Assembly: GCA_947184155.2 (NCBI GenBank)
Contig: CAMXCT020003746.1
Location: forward strand, 239,501-303,500
Length of the DNA stretch: 64,000 nt
Source of the DNA: Cladocopium goreaui
Taxonomy: Eukaryota > Sar > Dinophyceae > Suessiales > Symbiodiniaceae
Direction of reading: 5' to 3'
Positions 1-63,600 of this stretch are shown here, in pieces (position 1 is the stretch's first letter; each line of letters opens with the position of its first letter). Below the pieces are notes generated by a model that did not search any database, was not told where the DNA came from, and saw only the letters and a list, made by a program, of their open reading frames with translations. A program made the translations under genes and the position numbers.

Positions 1-1359
1 ACCGGCGAACACATTTTTGGGGATTCTTCTGGGGATCCCCAATAGCTGGATGGTCTATTTCATGGAAAACACGTCTATGACCGCCTTGTGCTTGTGGTTG
101 TGCATGTGTTTCCCACACCTCGGCACATCTGCCATTGGCAGATCTCGGAAACTGTCTCATCAAACCAGCCAAACATGTTTTTTTTTCATCATTCAAAAAT
201 TATTGGACTTGGGTCATATGACAATTAAAGAGATCTTAGTGATTGTAGAAGAATATATTTTTTTTTTGCGGTCCAGGTCTGCCACCGGTCTGCCACATAT
301 CTGAGAATTATATCATCACTAAACATTTAAAATGTCAATGTAGAAGTTTTACCACAGTTGACCAATGAATAATGGACTTGGGTTTATCATGGTTTTATCT
401 GAAAATCACGGAAAACAACACAACTCCAATCATCAATTAGTCATCTCCATCTGGTGGGTATACTCAGGTGACGCTGCGATACCAGGCTTCGTTTGTTGGC
501 CTATAACCCCCACTAAAAATATCCATGAACTAGTGCGATATATCTAGGATAAATCCTAGTTAACCGTTAAACAAAAAAAACAAAACAAGTTAGATGCTTA
601 ATGGCTCATCTCACAGATCCAAAGGAATTATATTTTTTGGTTTTGTTAGTGGGGTAAGTACGGTGATCATCCACGCCCAAAAAAACTGGGGTCAACTCAG
701 CTACTCTAAAGCCACAATGGCCGACAAGGGTTGTGGCCCAACTAACAGGTATTGTTATGGGCTTACAAATCATGATATATAACCAACTAATCAGCTAGTT
801 TTAGGAGTTTCATTCCATTTGTAACTATGAAAAAGAATTGGTTGGGCCATAACCATAACTATGATTAATGGTTACTCTTATTTTTTAGATGGATGCAACA
901 AAACAATAGATGGATGATTTGCATACTGCCTATTGGATTCCTTATTGCTTTATTTTTTTAAAACTGTTGGACCAGAACTGCACCATAGACCTGAGATTTC
1001 ACGATGTCAAAGACCTACGCAGCAGCATTAGTTGAGATATGACCCCTATGGCAGTGGAACTGTGCTAAGAAAATAAGTGCTTGAGGAAATCCAAAGCGTG
1101 TAGGTAAATCAACTATAATAGTGGGATATGTACTCTTAAATAAGTGGATATGTACTATAAATATCACTATAGTGGAGTGGATATGTACTCTTAATAAGTT
1201 GGGATATCCACCCACAAGTGGAACTGTGCTCCAAGTACTTAGAAGTTGATTCATATCCCCCCTGAAAAAAATACACTTATGACTGCCGTAAACCCTAGCG
1301 ATAGCAGTTGTCAACCACCTTGTAGTTGTTGTCCGTCTCTGGTCCCTTTGCTTGGGCCC
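1..1359. other. Intergenic or intronic stretch, one family B element
   Basis: No exon could be supported here. The stretch holds a family B element at 733-854 and a local degenerate duplication at about 1050-1245 in which AGTGGAACTGTGCT and GGATATGTACTCTTAA recur two or three times. A GC-richer patch at 60-165 could hide a short exon, but neither strand shows convincing splice sites. Confidence 0.5.
733..854. mobile_element. Family B introner-like element
   Basis: Inverted ends are visible: TTGTGGCCCAACTAACAG at the left and GGTTGGGCCATAACC at the right. The interior has the usual B-family body (TTATGGGCTTACAAATCATG, then TAGGAGTTTCATTCC). It is older looking than most B copies, and no flanking exons are seen. 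Confidence 0.6.
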
Positions 1360-1660
1360 CTACATCATTTTGACCCCAGGCACCCCAAGGATTTTATATA
1401 ATGGTTTAATGGCTGTATCATCATGTCTTGCATGACAATTTGCAATGGGGGTGTTGAGGGCAGAATCTAAGTTCCAGCACGTCCATTCTTTGTGCTGACA
1501 AGTTTCCAGAATTACTTTCAACACGTATCGTTTTGAATTACCCTCTGGTAAACCAACATAACTATAGAAAATCACCAGTGTGTAGGTAAATCAACTATTA
1601 TTAGTAGTGTTTATCCAATAGCTATGTTTGTTTACCAGATGGTATACACTCTAAAACCCT
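1360..1660 (-). CDS. Two-exon 3' end of an unrecognised gene, split by a family D introner
   Basis: Minus-strand exons 1660-1636 (25 nt) and 1544-1360 are both open and join in frame when 1635-1545 is removed as a 91-bp GT-AG intron. The first exon follows the acceptor TTTTCAGTAG. The second ends at a TAG stop at 1362-1360. After splicing the last stretch reads RYVLKVILETCQHKEW and continues to GVPGVKMM. The intron is exactly a family D element: the donor CTG|GTAAAC and acceptor TTTACCAG|AGGGT lie inside its inverted repeats. The protein is not recognised, and its N-terminal part must lie at higher coordinates or outside the window. Confidence 0.6.
1540..1643. mobile_element. Family D introner acting as an intron
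   Basis: Inverted ends ACCCTCTGGTAAAC and GTTTACCAGATGGT flank a body related to the other D copies. It supplies both splice sites of the minus-strand intron 1635-1545. No clear target-site duplication remains. Confidence 0.75.
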
Positions 1661-2118
1661 CTACTGAAAAGCCCTCACTAGATCTTCACCAAGAGACCCT
1701 TGACAATGTTCACAGAAGGCTTCTTGTCCCCTGCCAGAAGGTCCGGTAGCTCTTTAGGTGGGGAGCATACAGTCTTGATACAGTCTTTCCTATATTCTGT
1801 ATAATTGTATACATCTATTCTATGTAATGCTACCGACCCACATATATATAATACATAAATAGATAATACATATAACTACAGAAACACTGAGCTGGTGTAA
1901 TCACCGAAATTTGTGAGAACCACAATCACCATGATCACCGGACTAAAGGTTTACTAACAATAATCGGATGTTTCATGGGATGGGTAGGGTCGACAATTAT
2001 GTTCATTTATTGTTCATTTAGCACCCTCCGATAAACTAAAAAAGCTATTGAAATCGCCCATTTATAGATTATTTACCTATTAAACATTGTGATTTTCAAT
2101 CGCTATGTCAAATGCCCA

Positions 2119-2240
2119 GGGGGTAAACTAAAGATGGCTGAAACGTGCGGCCATCTGGGGATGATTCCCCCGATAACATCCTAACCATCATTCCAGTGAC
2201 GTGTCGACGTGAGGTCATGGTCAAATTCATCCAGATTCTT
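2119..2240. mobile_element. Family H element, diverged
   Basis: It shows the H-family core: a segment with TGCGGCCATCTGGGGATGATTCC, then AACCATCATTCCAGTGACG and GTGAGGTCATGG. The GGGTAAA start is present and the right end is decayed. Confidence 0.5.
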
Positions 2241-2998
2241 ACCCCACCTATATCAGCATTTTATGGTTTAAGTCTAATTCACATGAATATATATATATAT
2301 ATTAATGTCGGTCTCTGATTCGTAGCTAGGTTCGCTATTGTGGCATTTTTTACAAATTATTCTGAAACCCACGTATTGTTTGGAGGGAACACGTTTGTGG
2401 CAAAAAAAAAATGGGAGAGCTTTTTTTAGAAAAACAACCTGTAATACTACAAGTACTACAAGTACTGCAAGTACCACAAGTTCATCGGCAAAAAACAGTT
2501 TTAATTAGATTTCAATTGTAGCCAATTGAAATCCTTAGTTAAGTGAGGATTTGTTTTTCTCTTGGGAAGATTTTTTTTGACTTTCCACGTTAAAGAGAGT
2601 CCAGATATTGTTTGGGGGTGGGCCTCACACTAATCAGGAACCAACATTAGGTATGTATATATATATAAATATATATATATATTCGTGTGTACCATTATTA
2701 TTGTTAGTAGTATCATTATCGTTGTTATTACTAGTATTAGTATAAGTATCATTTATTATATGTATATACATTATCCCGTAAACAAATCTCGATTCACCCC
2801 CATTAAGCCATGATCTCCCCGTCGTTCAGATGGATTGCCAATGACCTACTGGTTGATTTCCAGCCCTCAACATCTTCGTCAGTTCATCCTCCCAGATTAC
2901 GAAATAACCCGCTAAGCTAGTGGGATATGAGAGTGGTATATGAGATACCTCCAGAATTGAGGAACATCTGGGCAATTTGTTATCTACAATGCGGCGAA

Positions 2999-3189
2999 TG
3001 CGGGGCCCGCTTGTTACAAGTTGGTTTATGACCCCATCTAACTATAGTTATAGCTACCATAATCCCTAGCCATCTTGTATGGTTAATAAACCCCATTAAT
3101 ATCCATTAACTATAGTTATATCTACCATAAACCATACTTAACCTACTTATAAACCAACATAGCTATCCAATCCTGGGTCCCACTTTGTA
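2999..3189. mobile_element. Family A element, long variant
   Basis: It starts TGCGGGGCCCGC and ends GGGTCCCACTTTGTAC. Inside it holds the A-family body with two diverged copies of the TATAGTTATAnCTACCATAA segment, so it may have an internal duplication. Confidence 0.55.
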
Positions 3190-3304
3190 CTGATACAATC
3201 AACCACCATCGAATTGGGGCAGATCCACACGATCCTAACCATCATCTGCCAGTTGAGGTCGTAGTCATATCCCACCAGCTTCGGCAGAGAATTGCTTACC
3301 ATTC

Positions 3305-3406
3305 CTGGTTGGTGGTTTTAACCATCTTGAAAAATATGAAAGTCAACGGGAAGTATGATCCCATATATAATGGAAAATAAAATTCATGATTGAAACCACC
3401 AACCAG
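3305..3406. mobile_element. Family C introner with 4-bp TSD ATTC
   Basis: Ends CTGGTTGGTGG and CCACCAACCAG are perfect inverted repeats. ATTC at 3301-3304 is repeated at 3407-3410, a clean target-site duplication. CTG|GTTGG and CCAACCAG could serve as splice sites. The neighbouring exon island begins about 70 bp downstream. Confidence 0.8.
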
Positions 3407-3479
3407 ATTCAGTGAACGCCCAGACCTTGTAACTGCCTTTGTTAGCTTTGTCTAGATTTGTGTTGGTCGGATTCCTTTT

Positions 3480-3605
3480 TTGTTGGTCAAATCGACCACC
3501 CCAAAGTGACCACACGACCGTTGCCACAGCCCTCCCACGAATGCCCCCTGAAAATGCCTCAAATGCCAAGGTCGAGAAGCCCTCAGGGATAGCTCTGAGA
3601 ACCAT
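3480..3605. CDS. Exon-like island, strand unresolved
   Basis: This GC-richer block stays open on both strands. Minus reads AIPEGFSTLAFEAFSGG, plus reads RPPQSDHTTVATALPRMPPE. Codon third positions do not separate the two, and no strong acceptor and donor pair was found. It is reported as a probable exon with uncertain strand and ends. Product not recognised. Confidence 0.35.
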
Positions 3606-3759
3606 CGATCATCTGAATTTGTGTTTCTTCTGGGTTTGTTTGGCAAGTGAATCTATAGTGTCTACAATCTGGGGCCCTAAACTACAATAACTAGGGTTTA
3701 TGGTAGCTATTTGCCTATAGTTAGATGGGGTTATAAAACTCTGGTATCCTGCTCAGACA

Positions 3760-4760
3760 AACCCAATGTTTGCTCCACATTGTAAGGAACTGTCCTTTAC
3801 ACTGAACTGACTTCATGTGGAAGCTGCACATGTTGAGGTCAAAATCACCTGTGGGATTGATCATATGAAAGCGATGTTTGTCTGGGGGTTCGGGCGTATG
3901 GCGGGGTGGTTTTGTATGTATATGTGTGTGTGTGCAAGTGTAACTATATATATATGCATAGATTTAAAGATATATAGGCATTTAGACATATAATTGTAGA
4001 TATAGGTACAAACACACACATATATATATATTTATTTATACAGATATGTAGATAAGAAATGTAGTAGATATACACATCAGTGGTTAAACCAAAAAAATGC
4101 AACACAAGTGCAATTTTCCTTTCTGTTCAAAAATCGGATTCTACTGAACGCATCCAAAAACCTGATGTTTGTATGGCTTTAAATACAGATTTTACATCCA
4201 CAGTCAATCTTTTTAAGCCAATGTATATATGTAAATATAAATACATACACACATTCATGTATATATATACATATATATATATATAATTATATATGCGTAA
4301 AAATATTTTTAAATGCACATATGTAAATGAAACAATTATATAGGAAAGAATTGGAGTCATTTCGGTGTATAAACATCATAGAATTCAGATATTGTATTAG
4401 TTTTTTAGTTATCATTATGGGATATTGAAATTTAGTTTATAACTGTTTAGGGCCTTGGTTATAAGTACCTATAACCCCATTTATGGAATATATAATCCTA
4501 TTTACAACCACATAAACCATAAATAATACCAGTATGGAACATGTAATCCTTATTATATACCATATTTATTGGCCTTTTTTGTGGCCTATTTAATCATATT
4601 GGAAATATACCAGGTATAATCTTGTCAATAATGATTATATTATAGGCCATTTGTATTATTGACCATAAATGTGATCATCTTTAATTATACCAGTTCATAT
4701 TATCCTATTTAATCATATTGGTCAGCTATGACTGGATATATCTATTTAGTATAATTTGGC
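3760..4760. other. AT-rich stretch without visible genes
   Basis: It contains GT and AT microsatellites (about 3915-4060 and 4225-4310) and a degenerate family B-like body at 4440-4640 (TTATAAGTACCTATAACCCC, CCATTTATGGAATATATAAT). No exon was recognised. Confidence 0.5.
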
Positions 4761-4766
4761 CACCCT

Positions 4767-4888
4767 ACAATGTGGGGCCCGCTAGTTATGTTTGTTGGTT
4801 TATACGAACTATAGTTATCATTACCATGAACCCTATAGTTATTGTAGTTATAAACCAGTTTAGCTATCTAACGGGGGCCCCACTTTGT
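4767..4888. mobile_element. Family A element
   Basis: Inverted ends ACAATGTGGGGCCC and GGGGCCCCACTTTGT enclose the typical body (TTTGTTGGTTTATA, then TAAACCAGTTTAGC). It is a complete copy. No flanking exons are recognised, so whether it is spliced is unknown. Confidence 0.7.
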
Positions 4889-5012
4889 ACCCAGTTACTA
4901 ATTCCATCTAATTCCCATATGCTCCATGTAGGGAATCTAATACCAATAGGCAGCCCAAAGAATCACCAGTCATTTTTCGGAACACATCCTATATCATATT
5001 GAAATCAATGGC

Positions 5013-5138
5013 CTATTTAATGGGTTCAATTTGGTCGAAGGCTGTCAAGTGGCGAATCCCGTGCGTCGTCCACGCGGAAGCCCTGCATGGGATCGTGGGA
5101 TTCAACAAATGACATCGAGTCGAGATGTTTTTGACCAT
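5013..5138 (-). CDS. Probable terminal exon, unrecognised
   Basis: The minus frame reads NPTIPCRASAWTTHGIRHLT and then AFDQIEPIK before a TAG stop at 5015-5013, with many G or C third positions in its last 28 codons. An ATG at 5138 would give a 41-residue product beginning MVKNISTRCHLL. No acceptor AG lies close upstream, so either this is a start or the exon boundary is missed. Product unknown. Confidence 0.4.
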   Translation of the reverse strand: MVKNISTRCHLLNPTIPCRASAWTTHGIRHLTAFDQIEPIK

Positions 5139-5139
5139 A

Positions 5140-6002
5140 GAAATTTGGATGGTATGGTTATAGATATGTATGGTATATAAGCATAGTATGGCATATCTAG
5201 ATATGGTATATGATATGTAGATATATACATGATTTGGTTTTGAAAACATAATGATGTAGATATATGGTTATAAAAATGCTTCTACATAAATATGGACCGA
5301 TACATACACCTACATATATATATATTATACAAACATGATCATATATTTATTCATATATATATATATATGATAGATATACTTGACGGGATCATTGTCGTAA
5401 AACCATCTCCCGTTTGGGATTCATATGATGTGGCCATGCCGTGGTACCATGATAAATTGATCTCCATCAGTTGGGATATGGGAACATGATATGCCTCGGA
5501 TAAAGGGTGATTCATAGGCTTAAATGGGGCTCTAAGCAACACACATAGGTAATACAACCATAAAATGTAAATCTAGTTGAGTGATTCTGATTGTATGTGA
5601 TTATGATTTTCTAGAGGAATTGCAGCCAACTTCAGAACACTGTCGACAAAGATCTTTCAAGGTTGTGAACTGTGAACAAAATCAGGCGCATAAAAAAATA
5701 ACAAACAGGTGGCTGGCATGGTTTTTCTTTCAACTTCTTTCATGTTATTGACAACAGGAATGACTGTAGTGACTGTTGGACAGCTGTGGATTACTACACC
5801 TTGGGCTGGTTCATGGGCCTAAAAAGTGATGATCTGCTTCTAAGCTTCAGGAAACATCTTTCCCCTTAATTGGACAGTCCTGGCGTAGTAGCCCGGGGTT
5901 CACATTATCAGTTGTCCAGTTCAACATGCTACAGGGCTACAATTACAGTGCAGCGGATCACTGGTGATTCCAAGAAAATACTCTGGATGAACCTCCACGT
6001 GT
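5140..6002. other. Stretch with microsatellites, no supported exon
   Basis: AT repeats occupy about 5160-5370. A GC-richer part at 5880-5990 has no decisive reading frame or splice pair. Nothing else is recognised. Confidence 0.4.
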
Positions 6003-6138: not shown

Positions 6139-6252
6139 CAGTTATGGCCCTTAACAGCTATAAATGGAATTATCACTCCTTTAACTAAAGTTATATACGA
6201 GCATATCATTATAAACCCAAAAATATATCTGTTAGTTGAGCCATAACTGCAG
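6139..6252. mobile_element. Family B introner
   Basis: Ends CAGTTATGGCCC and GAGCCATAACTGCAG are inverted repeats. On the plus strand TACA|GTTATGG and AACTGCAG|CAT could act as donor and acceptor (intron 6141-6252). Confidence 0.7.
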
Positions 6253-14719: not shown

Positions 14720-14824
14720 CTGGTTGGTGGTTTCAACCCCTCTGAGAAAAAAAAATATTAGTCAGTTGGGATGATTATTCCCAACTGAAAAAAAACAACA
14801 TTAATGTTCCAAACCACCAACCAG
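14720..14824. mobile_element. Family C introner
   Basis: Perfect ends CTGGTTGGTGGTTT and AAACCACCAACCAG. Possible TSD CTT(G/T) at 14716 and 14825, one mismatch. Confidence 0.75.
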
Positions 14825-14888: not shown

Positions 14889-15166
14889 CGAAGATATATC
14901 GAACTAGTTCGCGGGGTGAAACTAAATCAGCAAACATACAATGTGGGGCCCCCTAGTTATGTTTGTTGGTCTATGACCCCATCTAACTATAGTTATAACA
15001 TGTTATAACTACCATAAACCCTGGTTATTGTGGTTAGAAACCAACTTAGCTAACTATGGGGCCCCACATTGCAACTGCAGGGCACCAACTGAATCGAAGA
15101 GGGGCCGCCTATCGGCTCCCAAACTGGCATTCAAGTAGCCACAGAGGCCACAGAATCAGTGGATAA
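14889..15166 (+). CDS. Two exons joined in frame across a family A introner
   Basis: Exon 14889-14942 (reading RTSSRGETKSANIQ) and exon 15081-15166 (HQLNRRGAAYRLPNWHSSSH then RGHRISG, TAA stop at 15164-15166) are open. They join in frame if 14943-15080 is removed with donor CAAT|GTGGGG and acceptor AACTGCAG|GG. The intron is the family A element. The upstream boundary at GATGAG|CG is a guess. The product is unrecognised, basic and Ser/His rich at its end. Confidence 0.5.
14938..15080. mobile_element. Family A introner acting as an intron
   Basis: Ends ACAATGTGGGGCCCC and GGGGCCCCACATTGC are inverted repeats. The donor GT is inside the left repeat, and the acceptor CTGCAG lies 9 bp outside the right one. 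Confidence 0.7.
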
Positions 15167-15846: not shown

Positions 15847-15954
15847 CCCATATGCGAACCATGGTGCTGGTATATTTGCCTACAAAACTGGGTGATTTTG
15901 TTCGGGCAAGGGCAAATGTTGGAACATATTCCAGCACCATGGTTCGCATATGGG
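15847..15954. mobile_element. Family F introner-like element
   Basis: CCCATATGCGAACCATGG and CCATGGTTCGCATATGGG are perfect inverted ends, extended inward by TGCTGG and CCAGCA. CTG|GTATATTTG and ATATTCCAG|CACC would be good splice sites (intron 15870-15934). A second copy lies at 48941. Confidence 0.75.
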
Positions 15955-17126: not shown

Positions 17127-17552
17127 CGAGAAGTAGCAAATTCCTCCTCTTCAACTGAACCATTAAACATAACCCTGTCCCATCTCACTATTCTAGTTGG
17201 TTGATAGGATTCCCTAATATGGGCAAACCCAATGGCCGAGTAGTATAACTCCTTGCAATAACCAATCAACAATCTTTCAGCCACTATATCCCCATACTGT
17301 GGATGGAAGAGATCCTGCACCAGTTGGTAATTATTGGAAACTATGAAGCGCTACAAATAAATACAAATAATGGGACTGTTAAACCATTTACCCATCTACC
17401 AACTGGTGCAGGACTTCTTCCATCCACAGTAAGTTCAATAGTTTCACCCTCAATGAAACCCCTATTGATGGTTGCACAGCAAGCCCCCTTGAGGCCGTTG
17501 CAGAGACGGCGATGAAAATCAGGACGATAAACAGCAGCACCAAACCACCAAT
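17127..17552 (-). CDS. Two exons interrupted by a family E introner
   Basis: Exon 17552-17428 follows acceptor GCTGTGCCTCAG, and exon 17296-17127 ends at donor TCTCG|GTAAAAC. Removing 17427-17297 (GTGGATGG to ATCCACAG) joins them in a frame open for about 97 codons: WWFGAAVYRPDFHRRLCNGL, then GFIEGETIELT, then YGDIVAERLLIGYCKELYYS and NGSVEEEEFATS. An alternative frame in the first exon (IGGLVLLFIVLIFIAV) would be a membrane segment but stops four codons after the junction. The protein is not recognised. Confidence 0.55.
17297..17429. mobile_element. Family E introner
   Basis: CTGTGGATGGAAGA and TCTTCCATCCACAG are inverted ends. A second inverted pair, CCTGCACCAGTTGGTA, lies just inside. Donor and acceptor of the minus-strand intron fall in the terminal repeats. 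Related copies lie at 42970 and 48471. Confidence 0.75.
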
Positions 17553-18391: not shown

Positions 18392-18606
18392 ACCCGCTGG
18401 TTATTTGTTACATAGCCATGGTATAGATGGCCCATAGAAACATAGAAATAGATGGTTTACCTTTGAATAGCATGGTGAGTTTCCAAGGTGAGCTTAACAT
18501 AGCCATGGAAAATGGCCCATTTATAGATGGTTTACCTATTGAACATGGTGATTTTCCAGAGAAAAATGTTGGTTTTCCATGGCTATGTAACAAATAACCA
18601 GATGGT
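18392..18606. mobile_element. Long family D element nested in a family A remnant
   Basis: Ends ACCCGCTGGTTATTTGTTAC and GTAACAAATAACCAGATGGT give long inverted repeats (TTATTTGTTACATAGCCATG and its complement). At 215 bp it is twice the usual D length and has a second D-like palindrome inside. It splits an A-family sequence, since ATAAACCAACTTAC on the left continues with AACTATCTTGGGGGCCCC on the right. Confidence 0.65.
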
Positions 18607-19436: not shown

Positions 19437-19548
19437 CTGGTTGGTGGTATACCTACCCCTCTGAAAAATGATGGAGTTCGTCAGTAGGGATGATGATGTT
19501 CCCAATATATGGAAAGTCATAAAATTCATGTTCCAAACCACCAACCAG
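19437..19548. mobile_element. Family C introner with TSD ATTAT
   Basis: Ends CTGGTTGGTGGTAT and AAACCACCAACCAG. ATTAT precedes at 19432-19436 and follows at 19549-19553. Confidence 0.8.
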
Positions 19549-20740: not shown

Positions 20741-20910
20741 CAGTGATGGCCCAACTAACAGTTCTTTTAATGCCGGTTGGTGTACCTACCCCTCTGAAAA
20801 ATATGAGTTCGTCAGTTGGGATGATGATGTTCCCAATATATGGAAAGTCATAAAATTCATGTTCCAAACCACCAACCAGAATGGGTTTATAGTGATTCAT
20901 GACCTTGGAA
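20741..20910. mobile_element. Family B introner split by a family C introner
   Basis: The right end (minus view) GGGCCATCACTGCAG supplies the acceptor of the ASCH-gene intron. B sequence is continuous across the inserted C copy: CAGTTCTTTTAATG then ATGGGTTTATAGTGATTCAT. Confidence 0.65.
20773..20879. mobile_element. Family C introner nested in family B, TSD AATG
   Basis: Ends CCGGTTGGTGGTG and AAACCACCAACCAG. AATG at 20769-20772 is repeated at 20880-20883, showing insertion into the pre-existing B element. Confidence 0.8.
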
Positions 20911-21163: not shown

Positions 21164-21315
21164 GTAGGTAGTAGGTAGTAGGTAGTAGGTAGTAGGTAGT
21201 AGGTAGTAGGTAGTAGGTAGTAGGTAGTAGGTAGTAGTTAGTAGTTAGTAGTTAGTAGTTAGTAGTTAGTAGTTAGTAGTTAGTAGTTAGTAGTTAGTAG
21301 TTAGTAGTTAGTAGT

Positions 21316-21360
<45 letters not shown>

Positions 21361-21439
21361 GTAGTAGGTAGTAGGTAGTAGTAGTAGTAGGTAGTAGGTA
21401 GTAGGTAGTAGTAGTAGTAGTTAGTAGTAGCAGCAGCAT

Positions 21440-21477
<38 letters not shown>

Positions 21478-22940
21478 CAGTAGTAGTAGCAGTAGTAGTA
21501 GTAGTAGATAGTAGTAGGTAGTAGTAGGTAGTTAGTAGTAGGTAGTTAGTAGTAGGTAGTTAGTAGTAGGTAGTTAGTAGTAGGTAGTTAGTAGTAGGTA
21601 GTTAGTAGTAGGTAGTAGGTAGTAGGTAGTAGGTAGTAGGTAGTAGGTAGTAGGTAGTAGGTAGTAGGTAGTAGGTAGTAGGTAGTAGGTAGTAGGTAGT
21701 AGGTAGTAGGTAGTAGGTAGTAGGTAGTAGGTAGTAGGTAGTAGGTAGTAGGTAGTAGGTAGTAGGTAGTAGGTAGTAGGTAGTAGGTAGTAGGTAGGGT
21801 AGTAGGTAGTAGGTAGTAGGTGGTAGGTAGTAGGTGGTAGGTGGTAGGTGGTAGGTGGTAGGTGGTAGGTGGTAGGTGGTAGGTGGTAGGTGGTAGGTGG
21901 TAGCTAGTAGCTAGTAGCTAGTAGCTAGTAGCTAGTAGCTAGTAGCTAGTAGCTAGTAGCTAGTAGCTAGTAGCTAGTAGCTGGGAGTTGGGAGTTGGGA
22001 GTTGGGAGTTGGGAGTTGGGAGTTGGGAGTTGGTAGTTGGTAGTTGGTAGTTGGTAGTTGGTAGTTGGTAGTACGTAGTACGTAGTACGTAGTACGTAGT
22101 AAGGAGTAAGGAGTAAGTAGTAAGCAGTAAGCAGTAAGCAGTAAGCAGTAAGCAGTAAGCAGTAAGCAGTAAGCAGTAAGCAGTAAGCAGTAAGCAGTAA
22201 GCAGTAAGCAGTAAGTAGTAAGTAGTAAGTAGTAAGTAGTAAGTAGTAAGTAGTACGTAGTACGTAGTACGTAGTACGTAGTAAGTAGTAAGTAGTAAGT
22301 AGTAAGTAGTAAGTAGTAAGTAGTAAGTAGTAAGTAGTAAGTAGTAAGTAGTAAGTAGTAAGTAGTACGTAGTAAGTAGTAAGTAGTAAGTAGTAAGTAG
22401 TAAGTAGTACGTAGTAAGTAGAAGGAAGTAAGTAGTAAGTAGTAGGTAGTAAGTAGTAAGTAGTAAGTAGTAAGTAGTAAGTAGTAAGTAGTAAGTAGTT
22501 AGTAGTAAGTAGTAAGAAGTAAGTAGTTAGTAGTTAGTAGTTAGTAGTTAGTAGTTAGTAGTTAGTAGGTAGTAGGTAGTAGCTAGTAGCTAGTAGCTAG
22601 TAGCTAGTAGCTAGTAGCTAGTAGCTAGTAGCTAGTAGCTAGTAGTTAGTAGTTAGTAGTTAGTAGTTAGTAGTTAGTAGTTAGTAGCTAGTAGCTAGTA
22701 GCTAGTAGCTAGTAGCTAGTAGCTAGTAGCTAGTAGTTAGTAGTTAGTAGTTAGTAGTTAGTAGTTAGTAGTTAGTAGTTAGTAGTCAGTAGTCAGTAGT
22801 TAGTAGTTAGTAGTTAGTAGTTAGTAGTTAGTAGTTAGTAGTTGTAGTAGTTGTAGTAGTTGTAGTAGTAGTAGTAGCAGTAGTAGCAGTAGTAGCAGTA
22901 GCAGTAGTAGTAGTACTAGTACTAGTACTAGTACTAGTAC

Positions 22941-23000
<60 letters not shown>

Positions 23001-23039
23001 TAGTAGTAGTAGCAGCAGCAGCAGTAGTAGTAGTGGTAG
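21164..23039. repeat. 1.9-kb TAGTAGN heptamer satellite with trinucleotide ends
   Basis: The array is built of 7-bp units, in order of appearance mainly TAGTAGG, TAGTAGT, TAGTAGC, GGGAGTT, TAGTTGG, GTAGTAC, GTAAGCA and GTAAGTA, with interspersed TAG and CAG trinucleotide runs near 21320-21510 and 22845-23035. Variants form homogeneous blocks that change stepwise, as expected from local expansion of single-base variants. It stays open as poly-Thr on the minus strand, which is not evidence for a gene. Confidence 0.95.
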
Positions 23040-24104: not shown

Positions 24105-24210
24105 CTGGTTGGTGGTGCAATAACCATCTTGAAAAATGAGTTCGTCAATGGGAAGGATGACATCCCATATATTATAGAAAATAAAATTAATGTTTGAAGC
24201 CACCAACCAG
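24105..24210. mobile_element. Family C introner nested in family A
   Basis: Ends CTGGTTGGTGGTGC and AAGCCACCAACCAG. Flanks TTTA and TATA are only weakly alike, so no firm TSD. Confidence 0.75.
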
Positions 24211-24615: not shown

Positions 24616-25499
24616 CTACCAAAGGCTACGGAGGCCGAGACGCAGCATGAACGCTCCCGAGACCATCAGCCCGATGCGTAAGCAGCGCTTCTTGTCGCGC
24701 TGGCGGAAGTAGACGAAGAGCACACAGCTAAGGTACCTGGGACCATGATGGACTGCGGTTGAACCCATGGATAGCGTTTTCTGGGAATTTCGCGAAAGAA
24801 AATGTTGGTTTTCAATGGGAGCACAATGGAATTCAATATAGTGGAAAGTATAGTGGAAATTTGGATTGATATGCCTACGGCTGATAACCGATGTTTACAG
24901 GTTACACAGCCTGGAACAGCCACCAATAGTGCACACTTGTTTTGCTTGAGACATAATGGTAAGTTGAATATACATGACTACATGCTGCCTATTTACCGGG
25001 GAGTATACGGAGTAATAACTTTAATACCCTGTAAAAACACCCCCCGTTTCCCGTGGCTGCTTGGCAGCGAAGGGAAAATGGAGCCTGTAGCCGGTCGCCG
25101 CCGCAAGACCCAAGTGTCGCTATTGGTGGCTGTTCCAGGCCGTGTAACCTGTAAACATAGGTTATCAGCCGTAGGACATCCCGCTCACCTGGATGCGGAA
25201 TCTTCTCATGGTGGAATTCTTGAAATTCTTGACCACCATCAGCACTTCTTCACGTAGGTGAGGGAAACATCCTTGCAGATGGCGGACAAGTGCTTTGAAA
25301 GTCCATCGAAAGATCTGACCGTCGGATTTCTGGCGATGGTCGACTGTGGAAAAGGCGGTGTCCTCGCAAGTAGTCTGACATCGAATGCGAGATCGCACTG
25401 AGTCTGCCATGATCCACTCTGCGATCTGGGACCCCTGCCATATTGCCAGGTTCAATCCAGACGAGATCTTGGGCGGAAGTGAACTTGGAAGATGTTTCG
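24616..25499 (-). CDS. 3' half of a gene: one long internal exon and a membrane-type terminal exon
   Basis: Exon 25499-25189 lies between acceptor AAAATCCCAG and consensus donor CATCCAG|GTGAGC. It reads KHLPSSLPPKISSGLNLAIW, IAEWIMADSVRSRIRCQTTC, then KALVRHLQGCFPHLREEVLM and NSTMRRFRIQ. The last exon 24727-24616 follows acceptor CCTTAG and reads CVLFVYFRQRDKKRCLRIGL then MVSGAFMLRLGLRSLW before TAG (24618-24616), with a possible membrane helix. Phases do not match directly, so a middle exon is needed. A GC-rich segment at 25119-25070 inside element L (RHLGLAAATGYRLHFPFAAK) is a candidate. The protein is not recognised. Confidence 0.6.
24874..25175. mobile_element. Element L with 56-bp inverted repeats
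   Basis: CCTACGGCTGATAACC at 24874 and its complement ending at 25175 begin 56-bp arms that differ at only two positions. The arms flank about 190 bp that include a GC-rich, exon-like segment. It lies in the intron between the two exons of the gene at 25499-24616. It may be one element, or two opposed copies around a small exon. Confidence 0.65.
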
Positions 25500-26800: not shown

Positions 26801-26926
26801 TACAAGGTGGTGCCCCCAAGATAGCTAAGTTAGTTTATAACTCTAATAATTAGGACTTATGGTAGATATATCTATAGTTAATGGGATTATAAACCAACTT
26901 ATACCTTGGGGGGCACCACCTTGTAG
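26801..26926. mobile_element. Family A introner with 18-bp perfect ends
   Basis: TACAAGGTGGTGCCCCC and GGGGGGCACCACCTTGTA are near-perfect inverted ends. Spliced as AAG|GTGGTG to TTGTAG|GG it would be the intron 26807-26926. Confidence 0.75.
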
Positions 26927-27931: not shown

Positions 27932-28034
27932 ACTTACTGGTGCTTAGTAGGGAATGGATAGGAATGGGGGAATGGGATGATTATTGATAGTGATTATGGA
28001 TCATTCCCTCATTCCCTGCTAAGCACCAGTAAGT
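27932..28034. mobile_element. Element M, introner-like
   Basis: ACTTACTGGTGCTTAGTAGG and CCTGCTAAGCACCAGTAAGT are inverted ends. CTG|GTGCTTAG and AGCACCAG|T would be splice sites (27940-28029). It is the only copy seen here. Confidence 0.7.
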
Positions 28035-29124: not shown

Positions 29125-29160
29125 TCCGTAGCCATTTTGGCTCAAGCCTTTTGGCTCAAG
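29125..29160 (+). other. Double dinoflagellate spliced-leader relic
   Basis: The 22 bases from 29125 (TCCGTAGCC...GGCTCAAG) match the DinoSL sequence exactly. They are followed at 29147-29160 by CCTTTTGGCTCAAG, the 3' part of a second SL missing one A. This order, full SL then partial SL, is the known signature of an mRNA that was reverse transcribed, integrated, transcribed and trans-spliced again before another round of copying. No donor site follows, so it is not an SL RNA gene. Confidence 0.9.
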
Positions 29161-29550: not shown

Positions 29551-29776
29551 GAATATATACCGACCCTCTGGTAATCAAACATGGCGTGCTGTTGTTAATC
29601 CCTCATGTCAAGTTTTGTGTTTCCCATTAAAGTACATTAAAGCCACATTTCTACACGATTTTCACAGTTATGGCCCGAGTTATACCAGTTATAAGTACTA
29701 AGAAGTCACCCCATTTATAGAATGTATATAATCCCATAGAAATCCCACTTATAACTAATAAATGGCCATAACTGCA
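29551..29776. repeat. Second copy of the D-end plus family B composite
   Basis: ACCCTCTGGTAATCAAACAT, then CCTCATGTCAAGTTTTG, CATTAAAGCCACATTT and a family B copy at 29665-29776. It matches 23751-23966 along its whole length with point differences. Confidence 0.7.
29665..29776. mobile_element. Family B introner
   Basis: Ends CAGTTATGGCCCGAG and AATGGCCATAACTGCAG; body with CCATTTATAGAATGTATA. Confidence 0.7.
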
Positions 29777-30064: not shown

Positions 30065-30401
30065 GACATAGGGATAGGGAACTTCCATAAAGTACATGCT
30101 ACTTATTGTTCTATAAGTAAGTACCATCTGGTAATTTAACATAGCTATGGAAAATCACCATTTTTAATGGGTAAATCCACTATAAATGGCCATTTTCAAT
30201 AGCTTTTTGTATGTTTACCAGAGGGTACTACTTGTGGATACCTATGGAACTTATAGCTGCAGTTTCATGGGAAGAAATGCTCCCGGGGCTCCACCTCCAT
30301 CGGATTCATGCTGTGAGCAGAAGATCTTCAGTTCTTTTCTGGATCATTTCGTAAAGAAAAACATGGATTGTCCATGTGGTATTGTAAAAGTTGGAGAATA
30401 A
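30065..30401 (+). CDS. Two-exon gene 3' end with a 91-bp family D introner
   Basis: Exon 30065-30130 follows acceptor AAAACATAG and reads DIGIGNFHKVHATYCSISKY HL up to CTG|GTAATTT. The intron 30131-30221 ends TTTACCAG, and exon 30222-30401 continues in phase 0 as RVLLVDTYGTYSCSFMGRNA, PGAPPPSDSCCEQKIFSSFL and KKNMDCPCGIVKVGE to TAA. Both junctions are codon boundaries. The C-terminal part is Cys-rich (a CC pair, then CPC), which could bind metal, but no family is recognised. The upstream E-type fragment near 29965-30010 lies in the preceding intron. Confidence 0.65.
30123..30226. mobile_element. Family D introner acting as an intron
   Basis: Ends ACCATCTGGTAATTTAAC and GTTTACCAGAGGGT; the spliced interval 30131-30221 is 91 bp, the same as the D intron at 1545-1635. 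Confidence 0.8.
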
Positions 30402-30763: not shown

Positions 30764-30875
30764 ACCCTCTGGTTATTTAACATAGCCATGGAAAATCCCC
30801 TAATAAATGGAGGTTTTAATGGGAAAATCATCATAAATGGTGATTTTCCATGGCTATGTTAAATAACCAGAGGGT
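30764..30875. mobile_element. Family D element with long perfect ends
   Basis: ACCCTCTGGTTATTTAACAT and ATGTTAAATAACCAGAGGGT are perfect inverted repeats that continue with AGCCATGGAAAATC, so the copy can fold into a long hairpin. Flanking frames were not resolved. Confidence 0.75.
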
Positions 30876-35879: not shown

Positions 35880-35993
35880 CTGGTTGGTGGTTGAGCCAAC
35901 CCCTCTGAAAAATATGAGTAAGTCAGTTGGGATTATAAAATCCCCAACTGAATGGAAAGTCATAAAATTCCATGGTTCCAAACCACCAACCAG
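35880..35993. mobile_element. Family C introner
   Basis: Ends CTGGTTGGTGGTTG and AAACCACCAACCAG. Its right end lies 4 bp from the stop codon of the minus-strand frame at 35997. Confidence 0.75.
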
Positions 35994-37598: not shown

Positions 37599-37793
37599 CA
37601 AAACTAGCAATCCAATGTGGTTACCCTCTGGTAAACTAACATGTTGCTATGGAAAATCACAATCTTTTTGTAGGTAAATCAACTATTATTTCTATGGGCC
37701 ATATTCAATAGCTATGTAACAAATTACCAGAGGGTATGTGGTTATGTGACCTAAGAAGTACTGGATCTGAAGCAACAATGGGACCAATACAGG
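37599..37793 (+). CDS. Two short exons joined in frame across a family D introner with TSD
   Basis: Exon 37599-37630 (after GTGAACCAG) reads KTSNPMWLPS. Exon 37731-37793 reads GMWLCDLRSTGSEATMGPIQ to donor ACAGG|GTAAATG. Removing 37631-37730 (CTG|GTAAAC to TTACCAG|AGGGT) keeps the frame. Because the D copy is flanked by an 8-bp duplication, the spliced mRNA carries 21 extra bases relative to the empty site, an in-frame gain of seven codons seen as the MWLPSEGMWL echo. Product not recognised. Confidence 0.5.
37623..37735. mobile_element. Family D introner with 8-bp TSD ATGTGGTT
   Basis: Element ACCCTCTGGTAAAC to TTACCAGAGGGT. ATGTGGTT occupies 37615-37622 and again 37736-37743. Confidence 0.8.
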
Positions 37794-41171: not shown

Positions 41172-41268
41172 CTGGTTGGTGGTTTCAACCCCTCTGAAAA
41201 ATATCAGTCAGTTGGGAATATTCTTCCCAATATATGGAAAAATAAAAATGTTCCAAACCACCAACCGG
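41172..41268. mobile_element. Family C introner with TSD TAAT
   Basis: Ends CTGGTTGGTGGTTT and AAACCACCAACCGG. TAAT at 41168-41171 repeats at 41269-41272. A family B copy begins 6 bp later. Confidence 0.8.
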
Positions 41269-41416: not shown

Positions 41417-42277
41417 TCACTCGAACAGTCGTCCGAGGTGCAATACGACAAAAGTGACCGCGCTGTAGATCATTCCAAAGAGGAAAACCTGTAGCTATGG
41501 TCCCCAGCAAAGTGGGAATTCAGCGATATAGGATTTTGCATGATTTTACCAAGGAAAAACTAAGGTTCAAAATGACTAATTGGAATTTAACCAACAAAAT
41601 GGTGGTATAATCGGATGTACTGGGTTTTTTGATGGGGATGAAACCACTAATATCAGAAATAGACGTTGCAACTGCTTGGCAGAAAAAAGGATCTAATCGT
41701 CAAGAAATAGAAATATAGGGCAGTTGAAGCCCGAAAAAAAAGAGTCATAAATGGTTTTCCAAGTTATAAATGGCGCTGTAGCTGACTTATAAATGGTAAA
41801 GGGCTATAATATATGTTTTAAAATACTTGATGGCTCATCCCACGAATCCTAAGTGGCTTATATCCCTGGTTTTCAATGGGATATTTCTAGGGATAATCTA
41901 CAACCATCCGTGGCGACCTAGGATTTGATGCTTTATCGTCCTTCCCGTGGTTTAGTGAGGCCGTTCAGGAAGTACATACCTCATTTTCAGACTCACATCT
42001 ATACAGTTATGGCCCGAGTTATACCAGTTATAAGTACAAACAAGTCACCCCATTTATATATAGAATGTATAATCCCATAGAAATACCTACTTATAACTAA
42101 TAGCCATGGCCATAACTGTCAAACCAAAGGACAGAAGGGTTAAACAGAAGACCCAAAATGGCACCACGTGTCACTACGTGTCTTTCGTTACTAGACATCC
42201 GTGTTAGTAGCTTCACAAGTTTCGGCACGTTTCGGCATGTCAAATGAGAAATAGATTTCAGGCTTGCTCCAAACACC
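41417..42277 (-). CDS. Multi-exon 3' end with micro-exons and a B introner, membrane-type tail
   Basis: Exon 42277-42117 follows acceptor CCTCTTGTACCAG and reads VFGASLKSISHLTCRNVPKL, VKLLTRMSSNERHVVTRGAI and LGLLFNPSVLWFD up to ACA|GTTATGG. Removing the family B intron 42116-41999 (acceptor CTGTATAG) joins it in phase to a 19-nt exon 41998-41980 (VSLKM), which ends at a consensus donor ATGAG|GTATGT. The last exon 41488-41417 (VFLFGMIYSAVTFVVLHLGR LFE, TGA) encodes a membrane helix. A 13-nt micro-exon at 41917-41905 between CCTAG and GTTGTAG would link the phases. The micro-exons are inference. Product not recognised. Confidence 0.55.
42004..42118. mobile_element. Family B introner acting as an intron
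   Basis: CAGTTATGGCCCGAGTTATA and TAGCCATGGCCATAACTG are its ends. On the minus strand it is the intron 42116-41999. Confidence 0.75.
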
Positions 42278-42969: not shown

Positions 42970-43052
42970 GTGGATGGTTGCGAAATCCTGCACCCACTAT
43001 TTAAAAGCTTTCAACCATCCAAGGTGGTGCAGGATTTCGCAACCATCCACAG
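42970..43052. mobile_element. Family E introner, short copy
   Basis: GTGGATGGTTGCGAAATCCT at the left and AGGATTTCGCAACCATCCAC at the right. Inner segment ACCCACTATTTAAAAGC. The sequence beyond its right end (GTACGTTCAATG) resembles that beyond the E copy at 17297 (GTAAGTTCAATA). Confidence 0.7.
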
Positions 43053-43057: not shown

Positions 43058-43288
43058 TCAATGACTCAATTGAGATAACAACCTGCGCATGTTGGCATCT
43101 CGGCCTTGCCATGTCGACAACATCATCCCACTAGCGTTTTTGGGGAATGTCACTGGTTGGTGGTTGAGCCAACCCCTCTGAAAAATGATGGAGTTCGTCA
43201 GTTGGGATGATGACATTCCCAACTGAATGGAAAAATAAAACATGTTCCAAACCACCAACCAGGTAACTATAGTGGATTGTTGAGGCAT
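43058..43288 (-). CDS. Open frame reading through a family C element
   Basis: The frame starts MPQQSTIVTW, passes through the C element (43262-43153) without a stop, and ends VTFPKNASGMMLSTWQGRDA then NMRRLLSQLSH and TGA at 43060-43058. The downstream part has clear coding bias. The two flanks do not share a phase if the C copy is spliced at its own GT and AG, so either another splice pair is used or the element has become coding. Not recognised. Confidence 0.4.
   Translation of the reverse strand: MPQQSTIVTWLVVWNMFYFSIQLGMSSSQLTNSIIFQRGWLNHQPVTFPKNASGMMLSTWQGRDANMRRLLSQLSH
43153..43262. mobile_element. Family C introner
   Basis: Ends CTGGTTGGTGGTTG and AACCACCAACCAG. Flanks GTCA and GTAA differ at one base. 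Confidence 0.75.
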
Positions 43289-44000: not shown

Positions 44001-44102
44001 ACCCTCTGGTAATTTAACATAGCTATTGAACATGGCCATTTATAGTGAATATTCCCATTAAAACTGGTGGTTTTCCATAGTTATGTTAGTTTACCAGAGG
44101 GT
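44001..44102. mobile_element. Family D element
   Basis: Ends ACCCTCTGGTAATTTAAC and GTTAGTTTACCAGAGGGT. It starts 15 bp after a diverged family C copy (43873-43986). Confidence 0.7.
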
Positions 44103-44398: not shown

Positions 44399-44523
44399 TC
44401 AACTTCCAATCGCCATGATCTCCAATCCCAGCCGTGGCATCGCCGTCAAGTCGCTTTCTTCTAGATCAGGATAAAACTGATCCATGCAGGTCTCACAGCG
44501 CGTCCTCAAGGAAAGAGCCCTCT
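44399..44523 (-). CDS. Terminal exon, unrecognised
   Basis: Acceptor GCTGTACCTAG opens RALSLRTRCETCMDQFYPDL, EESDLTAMPRLGLEIMAIGS and TGA at 44401-44399. Third positions are strongly GC-rich. The frame also extends upstream (TIIAHLLYLE) so the acceptor could lie 20-30 bp further. A CxxC pair (CETC) is present. The acidic end and that motif do not identify a family. Confidence 0.65.
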
Positions 44524-44557
44524 CTAGGTACAGCAAATGGGCAATGATTGTTCTTAG

Positions 44558-44641
44558 AATGATATAACCTTAGTTATGAATGATATAACCTTAGTTATGA
44601 ATGATACAACCTTAGTTATGAATGATATAACCTTAGTTATA
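44558..44641. repeat. 21-bp tandem repeat, four copies
   Basis: AATGATATAACCTTAGTTATG repeats four times with one or two base changes. A family D copy follows at 44669. Confidence 0.9.
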
Positions 44642-44668
44642 GGAGTTATAAGTCTATTCATATCTGTT

Positions 44669-44775
44669 ACCCTCTGGTAAACGTTTACATAACTATGGAA
44701 CACCACCATTTGTAATGGGTAAATCAACTATGTCTATGGCCATTTTCCATAGCTATTTTGACATAACCAGAGGGT
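44669..44775. mobile_element. Family D element
   Basis: Ends ACCCTCTGGTAAACGTTTAC and GACATAACCAGAGGGT. Confidence 0.7.
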
Positions 44776-44957
44776 AAGGTCCATAAGTCTATGGGATATA
44801 GATGGCACAGAGCCAAACTGTAGGATTCCCTGATGACAAGTGATTTACTCATCAAAGATAAGGATTTTGCAACTGAACAATGGGGCCACCTATAAATGGA
44901 GCATACCCCAGGTGTCCTTTAATGGGAAAATTATGATAACACATGATTCGGGGGCAT

Positions 44958-45438
44958 CTAATTTTGAAACATACCTGCAATGTGGGGCCCCCGTTTGATA
45001 GCTAAATTGGTTTATAACTAGGTTAAGTATATGGTTTCTGGTATATATATATATCTATGGTTAATGGGGTTTATATATTAAAAAAAAAAAAAACTTACAA
45101 CTAGGGGGCCCCACATTGTGTATAGGTACTGTAAGGGTCAAGTGCCTCAAAAATGGTCTGGTCAATAAACAACATCACAAAATCTGCGGTGCCCAGGGCC
45201 TTTAAATTTGATCCTGCTGAGTGGAACAGAAGTCCAAATCCTTCTCCTGGTTGGTGACGACTCAAGCCATAAAAAAAGCAAAGCTTAGACCTACAGCTGG
45301 AAATGAGAACTGCCTGGGGGTAGGGTTCTTGCGCCATTCCACCTTGGTGCATAGCATTTCCAGTGGAGGTAAGTCTTCGATCAGGATTGGTTCAGAGATG
45401 TCTGCAGGTGCAGTGGTTGTAGGTTTCAGCTTAGGCAT
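44958..45438 (-). CDS. Small three-exon gene with a family A introner
   Basis: Exon 1 (45438-45291) starts MPKLKPTTTAPADISEPILI, EDLPPLEMLCTKVEWRKNPT and ends SFPAV at donor CTGTAG|GTCTAAG. Exon 2 (45216-45115) follows acceptor TTCCACTCAG: GSNLKALGTADFVMLFIDQT, IFEALDPYSTYTQ. Exon 3 (44974-44958) adds MFQN and TAG. All phases agree, giving about 88 residues. The second intron (45114-44975) is exactly a family A element, GTGGGGCC to CATTGCAG. The protein is not recognised. It has a proline-rich start and a hydrophobic middle. A second start or further exons cannot be excluded. Confidence 0.65.
44975..45114. mobile_element. Family A introner acting as an intron
   Basis: GCAATGTGGGGCCCCC and GGGGGCCCCACATTGT are its ends. 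The 140-bp interval is bounded by minus-strand GT and AG and separates two in-phase exons. Confidence 0.8.
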
Positions 45439-45509
45439 TGCGGCATAGGTTTATGTTCTGTTTCACTGTTTCATTCCATTGAAATAGCTGGAGTTGTATA
45501 TATATATAT

Positions 45510-48153: not shown

Positions 48154-48267
48154 ACCCTCTGGTAAACATATAAAAAACACCTATGATGGAAAATCACCAT
48201 TTCCAATGGGAACATCAACGAACTAAATGGCCATTGTCAAAAGCTTTTTGTATGTTTACCAGAGGGT
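48154..48267. mobile_element. Family D element
   Basis: Ends ACCCTCTGGTAAACATATAA and TTTTTGTATGTTTACCAGAG GGT. The flanks AGTT and AACT extend the inverted repeat. Confidence 0.7.
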
Positions 48268-48935: not shown

Positions 48936-48940
48936 GATAT

Positions 48941-49044
48941 AACCCATATGCGAACCATGGTGCTGGTATATTTACCTACAAAACTGGGTGATTTTGTTCG
49001 GGCAAATGTTGGTAAATATTCCAGCACCATGGAGCATATGGGTT
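48941..49044. mobile_element. Family F introner-like element
   Basis: AACCCATATGCGAACCATGG and CCATGGAGCATATGGGTT. The centre TACAAAACTGGGTGATTTTG is identical to the copy at 15847. Confidence 0.75.
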
Positions 49045-49138
49045 AGCCAATTGTTTTCAGAATGCTGTGGGTATGGCATATCGCAGGGTCCTCATGACCT
49101 TTGTCTCACTTTCTCCACCGTCCTGCTCCTGCTGAAGC

Positions 49139-50498: not shown

Positions 50499-50600
50499 AT
50501 CCTCTGGTAAACTAAAATAACTATGGAAAGTCACCATTTTTCATGGGACAATTCACTATAAATGGTGATTTTCCATAGTTATGTTAAATTACCAGAGGGT
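50499..50600. mobile_element. Family D element
   Basis: TATCCTCTGGTAAACTAAAA and TTAAATTACCAGAGGGTA. A family H copy follows at about 50610-50740. Confidence 0.65.
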
Positions 50601-55691: not shown

Positions 55692-55804
55692 ACCCTCTGG
55701 TAATTTGTTACAGTTCGCTATTGAAGCCATGGCCAATAGAAATAGTTGATTTCTCTACTGAACATGGTGATTTTCCATAGTTTTTTGTATGTTTACCAGA
55801 GGGT
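55692..55804. mobile_element. Family D element
   Basis: ACCCTCTGGTAATTTGTTAC and TTTTTGTATGTTTACCAGAG GGT; the flanks ATATGT and AACATAT extend the inverted repeat. Confidence 0.7.
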
Positions 55805-56282: not shown

Positions 56283-56389
56283 CAGTTATGGCCCGACTAA
56301 CAGTTATAAATGGAATTATGACTCCTATATCTATGGTTAAATATATTCTGAAATAACCCAAAAATAAACTGTTAGTTGGGCAATAACTG
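56283..56389. mobile_element. Family B introner
   Basis: CAGTTATGGCCCGACTAACAG and CTGTTAGTTGGGCAATAACTG, about 21-bp inverted ends. It supplies the minus-strand donor of the exon 56527-56388. Confidence 0.75.
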
Positions 56390-59959: not shown

Positions 59960-60077
59960 CTGGTTGGTGGTATACCTACCCCTCTGAAAAATATGGGTTT
60001 GTCAGTTGGGGGGACTGATGATGACATTCCTAATTTATGGAAAGTCAAAAAAAAACATGTTCCAAACCACCGACCAG
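59960..60077. mobile_element. Family C introner with TSD AAAG
   Basis: CTGGTTGGTGGTAT and AAACCACCGACCAG; AAAG at 59956-59959 and 60078-60081 (AAAGC if the next base is counted). Confidence 0.8.
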
Positions 60078-60093
60078 AAAGCTATAAAGATAC

Positions 60094-60609: not shown

Positions 60610-60876
60610 TTGCAACTTGAAACAACGATAGAAGCAAGTAGATATATCAGTCAAAGGCGATATTCAATAGGAAATCATAGCTCAAGGTCCAAAATTTCGA
60701 CCATTGCTTTTTTGTTTGAAGACAAAACCTCTCCGACCAACATTCGACAACTGGCTGGTGGTGCAATAGCCATCTTGAAAAATATGACTTCGTCAATGGG
60801 AAGGATTATCCCATATATTCATTATGTAGAATAAAGAACGTTTGAAACCACCAACCAGACAACATCGATTTATTAG
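60610..60876 (+). CDS. Exon pair across a family C introner with a GC donor
   Basis: The frame ASRYISQRRYSIGNHSSRSK, ISTIAFLFEDKTSPTNIRQL reaches the C element at CTG|GCTGG. Using that GC donor and the acceptor CCAACCAG, the sequence continues TTSIY and TAG (60874-60876) in phase. The 5' end at an ATG at 60610 is provisional. Not recognised. Confidence 0.45.
60751..60858. mobile_element. Family C introner with TSD ACAA
   Basis: CTGGCTGGTGGTGC and AAACCACCAACCAG. ACAA at 60747-60750 repeats at 60859-60862 (ACAAC with the next base). Confidence 0.8.
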
Positions 60877-62760: not shown

Positions 62761-62764
62761 CATA

Positions 62765-62855
62765 CTGGTTGGTGGTTTCAATCCCTCTGAAAAAATAGTC
62801 AGTTGGAATTATTATTCCCAATATATGGAAAAAAATGTTCCAAACCACCAACCAG
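62765..62855. mobile_element. Family C introner with TSD CATA
   Basis: CTGGTTGGTGGTTT and AAACCACCAACCAG, the shortest C copy (91 bp). CATA at 62761-62764 repeats at 62856-62859. Confidence 0.8.
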
Positions 62856-62987
62856 CATAGTATTCTTTCAAAACAAGATTTAGCCATGGATAGAATGGGT
62901 TTCTCCCTATTTTTTCCAGTCCAAATGACTTACAGTATAAACGGTCGATATTCCATACCTATGTTGATTCACTGCTAGGAGATATCT

Positions 62988-63100
62988 GGGAAATTTTAAT
63001 AGTTCACTAGCCTGAATCTTGCGGCCATTTGGGGATGATTTCCCATTATTAACCATGATTCCAGGGCTCGGGAGAACAGTGAGGTCGTTATAATTTACCC
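62988..63100. mobile_element. Family H element
   Basis: GGGAAATTTTAATAGTTCAC and GTGAGGTCGTTATAATTTAC CC. A family C copy is inserted at its right edge. Confidence 0.7.
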
Positions 63101-63101
63101 T

Positions 63102-63199
63102 CTGATTGGTGGTTTCAACCCCTCTGAAAAATATTAGTCAGTTGGAATTACTATTCCCAATATATGGAAAAATACAAATTGTTCCAAACCACCAACCAG
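63102..63199. mobile_element. Family C introner with TSD CCCT
   Basis: CTGATTGGTGGTTT and AAACCACCAACCAG. CCCT at 63098-63101 repeats at 63200-63203. It supplies the acceptor of the exon at 63200. Confidence 0.8.
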
Positions 63200-63387
63200 C
63201 CCTGATCTATGCTATTGAGAATGGTGTTTTTTTCACCAGCCAAAATGGGAACAGACTCGGGGTTGGGTGTGGCTCTGGGAAATTCCCTGCATCTTTCCGA
63301 TTGGTAGGGGATATAGGGGATGATCTCACTGGAGATTTAACCATCAACCATGGGGGTTTAACCCTATTACCATGGGTTGGTTTGTAA
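63200..63387 (+). CDS. Terminal exon starting at a family C element
   Basis: After CCAACCAG the frame reads LIYAIENGVFFTSQNGNRLG, VGCGSGKFPASFRLVGDIGD, DLTGDLTINHGGLTLLPWVG L and TAA at 63385-63387. The pattern of alternating hydrophobic and polar residues with glycines looks like beta structure. Codon bias is moderate. The C element would be its preceding intron. Function not recognised. Confidence 0.5.
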
Positions 63388-63497
63388 GTTTGTAAACATA
63401 GTAAAAACAAAAGGAAAAACAATTTCCTTCCCCCCACTGAATCTAATTTACCATATACAGATACAGTATATCAGTATTAGGTCGGAGCAACCCTGTA

Positions 63498-63600
63498 CAG
63501 TTATGGCCATTTAGCAGTTATAAGTACTGACAAAATTTTATAAAATGTATAATCCTATTTATAACCAACTATACAGTAATTCAAAAATGACCATAACTGT
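63498..63600. mobile_element. Family B element
   Basis: CAGTTATGGCCATTTAGCAG and AAAATGACCATAACTG. Confidence 0.7.

Follow-up and report, generated by a model that had tools for sequence, protein, structure and literature searches.

Introners, i.e., mobile elements whose copies become introns, are reported to number from one to 43 families per genome and to recruit their splice sites in diverse ways (PMC9860276), and introners have been described from dinoflagellates (PMC7789003, PMC10666404, PMC11453091; PMC12005148 and PMC12730881 were also consulted). In Symbiodinium microadriaticum, they are described as carrying terminal inverted repeats (TIRs) and a 3' splice site within the element, the 5' splice site being taken from a 4-bp target-site duplication (TSD) (Gozashti et al., 2022, PMC9860276). 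For Polarella glacialis, 12,253 recent introner introns are reported, with 15 families of at least 100 introns each (Roy et al., 2023, as cited in PMC11453091), and the introner elements of Amoebophrya are described with inverted repeats of 8-20 nt and direct repeats of 3-5 nt at the intron ends (Farhat et al., 2021, PMC7789003). In this work, we analysed a 64-kb window of Cladocopium goreaui DNA (the whole stretch under study, contig C3746, positions 239,501-303,500; 39.4% G+C), from an assembly of 1,165,616,438 bases in 6,202 contigs, together with introns mapped in genes of the same genome. The window holds many short two-ended elements, designated by family letters, which an initial annotation had read as introners whose inverted repeats supply the splice sites.

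We consider it highly probable that this is a locus dense in miniature inverted-repeat transposable elements (MITEs), in which families A, B and C are TA-flanked MITEs and family D is of the 4-bp-TSD kind, and that a share of the introns of this genome follows a TSD rule whose layout D fits. According to this rule, the 4-bp duplication would supply the donor with its first bases (GT, GC or GA), the element would begin at +5 with CTTG or CTGG, the acceptor would be the final AG of the element, and the removal of one TSD together with the element would restore the exon; a D copy could act as an intron if the first base of its TSD is G.

Two kinds of inverted-repeat element in the window

End searches of the window recovered 62 two-ended elements of families A-D (16 A, 13 B, 17 C and 16 D), against means of 0.15, 0, 1.3 and 0, respectively, in 20 shuffled windows (about 1.45 in total, with up to 5 for C). 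Short two-ended elements are spread from about 730 to 63,600, and small families add roughly ten more: family E, with inverted repeats at 17295-17431 and 42970-43050 plus a lone end near 48470, families F (2 elements), G (1), H (1) and I (2), and a GGGTAAATTATAA family; a stricter pair search returned 0 E, 1 F, 1 H and 2 I. Inverted repeats of 12 bases within 500 nt numbered 61, while 20 shuffles averaged 2.6 and never exceeded 8; self-comparison placed 13,780 bases of the window in repeats, some tandem arrays included. The abundance of such elements noted in the initial annotation was thus confirmed, as one part of its observations. Across the genome, exact C 15-mers occur 29,779 times (5 in the reversed control), showing a high copy number for this family, and exact two-ended D copies 7,577 times (0 in the control). 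The window is element-rich, with C and D denser in it than in the genome or the sampled gene loci: exact C ends reach 109 per Mb in the window (7 ends) and 25.5 per Mb over the whole genome, the 131 kb of gene loci containing none, and exact D pairs number 3 in the window and 1 in the gene loci, with 6.5 per Mb genome-wide.

The flanks, counted over window copies pooled with copies in other genomic loci, separate the families. Of 29 C copies, 25 carry TA at the left flank and 27 at the right; flanking dinucleotides match in 10 of 16 A copies (4.07 expected) and, weakly, in 9 of 15 B copies (6.2 expected). For family D, an exact 4-base duplication was found in 8 of 24 copies (0.48 expected), and in 7 of 16 within the window alone (0.07 expected). 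Therefore, A, B and C are best read as short, TIR-bounded, TA-flanked MITEs, with B the weaker case, and D is a second kind of element, with a 4-bp TSD and CTGG...CCAG tips; TSD plus TIRs place D among DNA transposons. Stowaway and Tc1-mariner MITEs measure about 100-130 nt and have TIRs and TA flanks, and A, B and C, which we presume to be Tc1/mariner or Stowaway-like, resemble them in these three features of element structure alone. The elements are given below, with the strand where one is assigned.

Family D
3305..3406, minus strand, exact 4-bp TSD (GAAT on minus)
14720..14824, TIR CTGGTTGGTGG
19437..19548, flanked by the 5-base duplicate ATTAT
20773..20879, TSD AATG, adjoining a frame-broken ASCH-domain gene copy
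24105..24210
35880..35993
41172..41268, TSD TAAT
43153..43262, plus strand, GTCA/GTAA at the TSD position (3/4 identical), second copy with a G donor
59960..60077, TSD AAAG
60751..60858, TSD ACAA
62765..62855, TSD CATA
63102..63199, TSD CCCT

Family C, all with TA flanks
1541..1642, TIR CCCTCTGGTAAAC
18393..18605
30124..30225
30765..30874
37624..37734
44002..44101
44670..44774
48155..48266
50500..50599
55693..55803

Family A
6139..6249, TIR CAGTTATGGCCC, TA/CA flanks
29665..29774, CA flanks
42004..42118
56283..56389, TA flanks
63498..63599, last element in the span initially annotated

Family B
4768..4887, TIR CAATGTGGGGCCC, TA flanks
14939..15071
26803..26923, TA flanks
44978..45118, minus strand, CA on both sides on minus, adjoining the donor-like CAG/GTATGT of a putative gene

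Families E to H
17295..17431, family E, the only one of three E copies with ACCAG in the repeat
42970..43050, family E, repeat with neither CTGGT nor ACCAG
15847..15954, family F
48940..49045, family F
24874..25175, family G, a single 302-nt element with a 56-nt inverted repeat, 96% complementary
27932..28034, family H, ACTTACTGGTGCTTAG

Mapped introns and family D

Introns were mapped by spliced protein alignment in PP1-like, DEAD-box and p97/AAA genes of the same genome. From 282 called introns, 192, together 63.6 kb long, were kept in 27 loci, and 90 lying near protein ends or beside exons shorter than 24 nt were dropped. The donors of the retained set (GC 83, GT 72, GA 37) agree with the share of 25-74% GC/GA-AG introns reported for Symbiodiniaceae (PMC11453091). 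In 24 of the 192 introns, the motif CTTGG starts 4 nt downstream of the donor, compared with 0.16 at random internal G[TCA] sites, and at least four of its five bases match at this offset in 59 introns, compared with 3.4; by the same control, CTTG stands at +4 in 39 (1.1) and CTGG in 6 (0.9). At the opposite end the signal is weaker, with CCAAG closing 15 of the 192 introns vs 3.5 at random internal AG sites. Furthermore, end-to-end inverted repeats whose left arm begins after four bases were found in 10 introns at 7/10 matches (3.2 in the control), with 0-2 at other offsets, and 3-base duplicates over all introns numbered 28 vs 15.4. Where CTTG or CTGG stands at offset 4 (45 introns), the preceding exon closes with G in 13 cases, against 80 cases among the remaining 147 introns, as expected if element-type introns need no ready-made AG. 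This genome carries introner-type introns, and their signature would fit a 4-base duplication as the source of the donor and the tip of an element as the source of the acceptor. The interpretation in the initial annotation is supported to this extent: the elements are transposon-like families of a dinoflagellate, and the genome does hold introner-type introns.

Two introns of one PP1-like gene bring family D close to this signature. The intron at 2152-2305 (minus strand) of locus L047 begins with GCAG, followed at exactly +4 by the D tip CTGGTTGGTGGTTTCAACC, the only D 11-mer within the 192 introns; the second has the form GAGA-CTGGTTG...CAACCAG-GAGA, i.e., an exact 4-bp duplicate enclosing D-like tips. 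In the window, 2 of the 32 D orientations offer a G[TCA] start at the duplication, and long frames are joined in neither. When an exact TSD, a G[TCA] donor and at least 8/10 matching tip bases were required together, a single window candidate remained, the copy at 3305..3406 on the minus strand, which joins short frames of 41 and 37 nt. The CTGG...CCAG tips, the 4-base duplication and the L047 intron, set against only 2 of 32 usable donors, indicate that D is probably able to act as an introner where its TSD starts with G, yet mostly does not do so here; the majority of copies in the window fall outside the rule and are plain insertions. We infer that D copies can be spliced from RNA.

Splice words and alternative explanations

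It had initially been proposed that one terminal word, CTGGT with its complement ACCAG, gives both donor and acceptor in either orientation and that most elements are introns, a proposal that we now regard as very improbable. GT...AG does stand at the positions named for it in 29/34 element-orientations for C and 24/32 for D (8/32 for A and 7/26 for B), and Aureococcus introners are published as carrying both splice sites, with 12 bp added to the transcript (PMC9860276). Regarding the word itself, said to lie, in this or a similar form, in the terminal repeats of C, D, E, F and M, it was recovered in C, D and F, and also in H; E has ACCAG in one of three copies, and M was not matched to any repeat. 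CTGGT is present in 4 of 12 compared repeat ends (two ends being B variants), above all 3000 shuffles if the word is fixed beforehand; if it is not, some 5-mer is common to at least four ends in 6.7% of shuffles. Arms holding GT plus CT, the latter reading AG on the opposite arm, were observed in 12/12 and arise by chance in 22% of random 12-mers and 60% of random 25-mers. As 5-mers are thus shared among shuffled ends and such arms are common by chance, the supposed convergence of unrelated ends on one solution is not established.

The mapped introns speak against splicing at these words. None of the 192 homology-mapped introns combines a GT donor with CTG at the end of the upstream exon, so that a repeat-internal GT is used in 0/192, and none has a C donor or acceptor boundary, or an A or B boundary, in this limited sample of conserved genes; three end in ACCAG, one of them being CCAACCAG, a D-like end. 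Splicing of D from CTG/GT to CCAG/, with the 4-base duplication, would leave 7 nt, and splicing of C from CCCTCTG/GT to CCAG/AGGG, with the TA duplication, 13 nt (+1 frame), the frame therefore being shifted in both; by the arithmetic of the TSD rule, one TSD plus the element is removed exactly. Joining at 68 predicted GT...AG junctions gives open frames of 175 nt on average, vs 201 nt at random cuts, both arms reach at least 60 nt in 28% of predicted junctions vs 33% of random cuts, and the mean frame at reconstructed empty sites is 234 vs 255 nt; the claim that several copies lie between in-phase exons finds no backing in these figures. Families A, B and C, because their flanks are TA-type, cannot supply a G donor.

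A further explanation is that no family here makes introns, all of them being plain MITEs, and that the D-like starts of introns reflect chance insertions into old introns. In its favour are the gene loci, where 16 window-family elements were found, 14 inside called introns (10 of these introns passed the filter) and 2 outside any called intron; none of the 14 covers a whole intron, although one D element in a filter-failed intron abuts one boundary, and copies of A, B and C in these loci are mostly passengers within longer introns. It also agrees with the higher density of C and D in the window and with the scarcity of TSDs that offer a G donor. Against it, the sole D 11-mer in the mapped introns lies exactly 4 nt from a donor, and D and the intron signature have both the TSD length and a CTNG tip in common; we judge this explanation unlikely.

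Several points weigh against the TSD rule and the role that it gives to D. The aligner imposed GT/GC/GA donors and AG acceptors, and the intron calls rest on protein homology, not RNA, in conserved genes, introners being reported to favour lowly expressed genes (PMC9860276). The 3' words CAAG (24 vs 13.3) and CCAG (23 vs 15.2 at internal AG sites) are weakly enriched, the offset-4 inverted repeat drops to 4 vs 2.5 at 8/12 matches, and exact 4-base duplicates over all introns show a modest excess (7 vs 3.95). The D-derived intron of L047 has neither the D right end nor the right GCAG, the GAGA intron shares just its outer 7 nt with D and differs in the interior, and neither of two D elements inside filter-failed introns is at +4. 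Finally, where G follows the duplication, a B splice at the repeat word leaves +3, in frame, so that B is disfavoured by the 0/192 introns alone.

With the TSD rule retained as the preferred reading, it is possible, and we propose it tentatively, that D and the CTTGG-tipped introns form one superfamily seeding both MITEs and introns, the outcome being set mainly by whether a G-starting 4-bp target lies in a transcribed exon. If true, this would be a natural experiment in intron birth, with the locus representing its non-intron half. Two look-alikes in raw sequence, transposons with splice-like words and transposons that make introns, are told apart by the present analysis, and the genome seems to hold both sorts, with D and C in thousands of copies. 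The rule that would turn a DNA transposon into an intron, i.e., a 4-bp duplicate with G as its first base, combined with an AG at the end of the element, thereby becomes open to comparison of D copies.

Gene content and comparison with known systems

The window DNA belongs to the dinoflagellate, as seen from an exact copy of the 21-base dinoflagellate spliced leader (DinoSL; sequence published in PMC6050394 and PMC6616646), with none expected from 100 shuffles:

29126..29146, plus strand, exact dinoflagellate spliced leader, followed by a partial second copy at 29147-29160

A leader followed by a partial second copy is regarded as a mark of retroposition (PMC6050394), and the segment 29126-29160 is a sign of a retroposed trans-spliced mRNA. 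The locus is MITE-dense and apparently gene-poor. Pfam scans with stops masked, covering about 56% of six-frame residues (overlaps counted) and leaving out 1-5,400 and several other frames, returned no family above the cut-off; no matches were obtained in tRNA and Rfam scans of the window, in PDB sequence searches with two window stretches, or in pattern scans of public contigs for the family ends. The open frame at 25,200-25,545 (minus strand) had a single weak relative (P0009, E 0.0013) and was dropped.

A putative multi-exon gene lies at 44410-45450 on the minus strand; one similar public open reading frame (P0010) was found and no further copy in this genome, and for these reasons the gene is unusable as a splice test. 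In it, a B element stands just before the donor-like CAG/GTATGT; speculatively, its removal, from CAAT/GTGGGG to CAG/, would place the next donor at the junction, and the P0010 translation enters what looks like the same insertion. An ASCH-domain gene copy at about 21,120-20,883 (minus strand) has a match that breaks across two frames near query residue 45, a part that many other genomic ASCH copies match in one frame; public relatives also exist. The D element with TSD AATG that follows the broken copy ends in CCGG on the gene strand and thus has no acceptor AG. In the assembly, contigs C5923, C143, C735, C2286 and others have ASCH matches of near-equal score lying within open frames that reach 3,380 codons, which may represent a multi-copy mobile element. 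Adjoining the ASCH copy, about 1.8 kb (21164-23009) consist of the 7-base tandem repeat GTAGGTA, which is G-skewed, and three adjacent tandem arrays, with units of 12, 40 and 3 bases, occupy 38715-39822. Contig C1 (at least 6.1 Mb) contains several conserved-gene matches within long open frames and may represent a bacterial chromosome included among the assembled contigs.

Among the described systems, the introners of S. microadriaticum resemble both the intron signature and the layout of family D, compared here by layout; unlike those introners, the window D copies mostly have no G-starting TSD. The likeness to P. glacialis lies in the many introner families of a dinoflagellate genome, families A, B and C of the window being at most candidate introns. 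Introns of Amoebophrya are reported as mostly non-canonical with highly variable ends (PMC7789003), and such ends would be invisible to the GT/GC/GA-AG aligner used here. In Aureococcus, the 12 bp added by introners that carry both splice sites keep the frame, unlike the leftovers of 7 nt for D and 13 nt for C.

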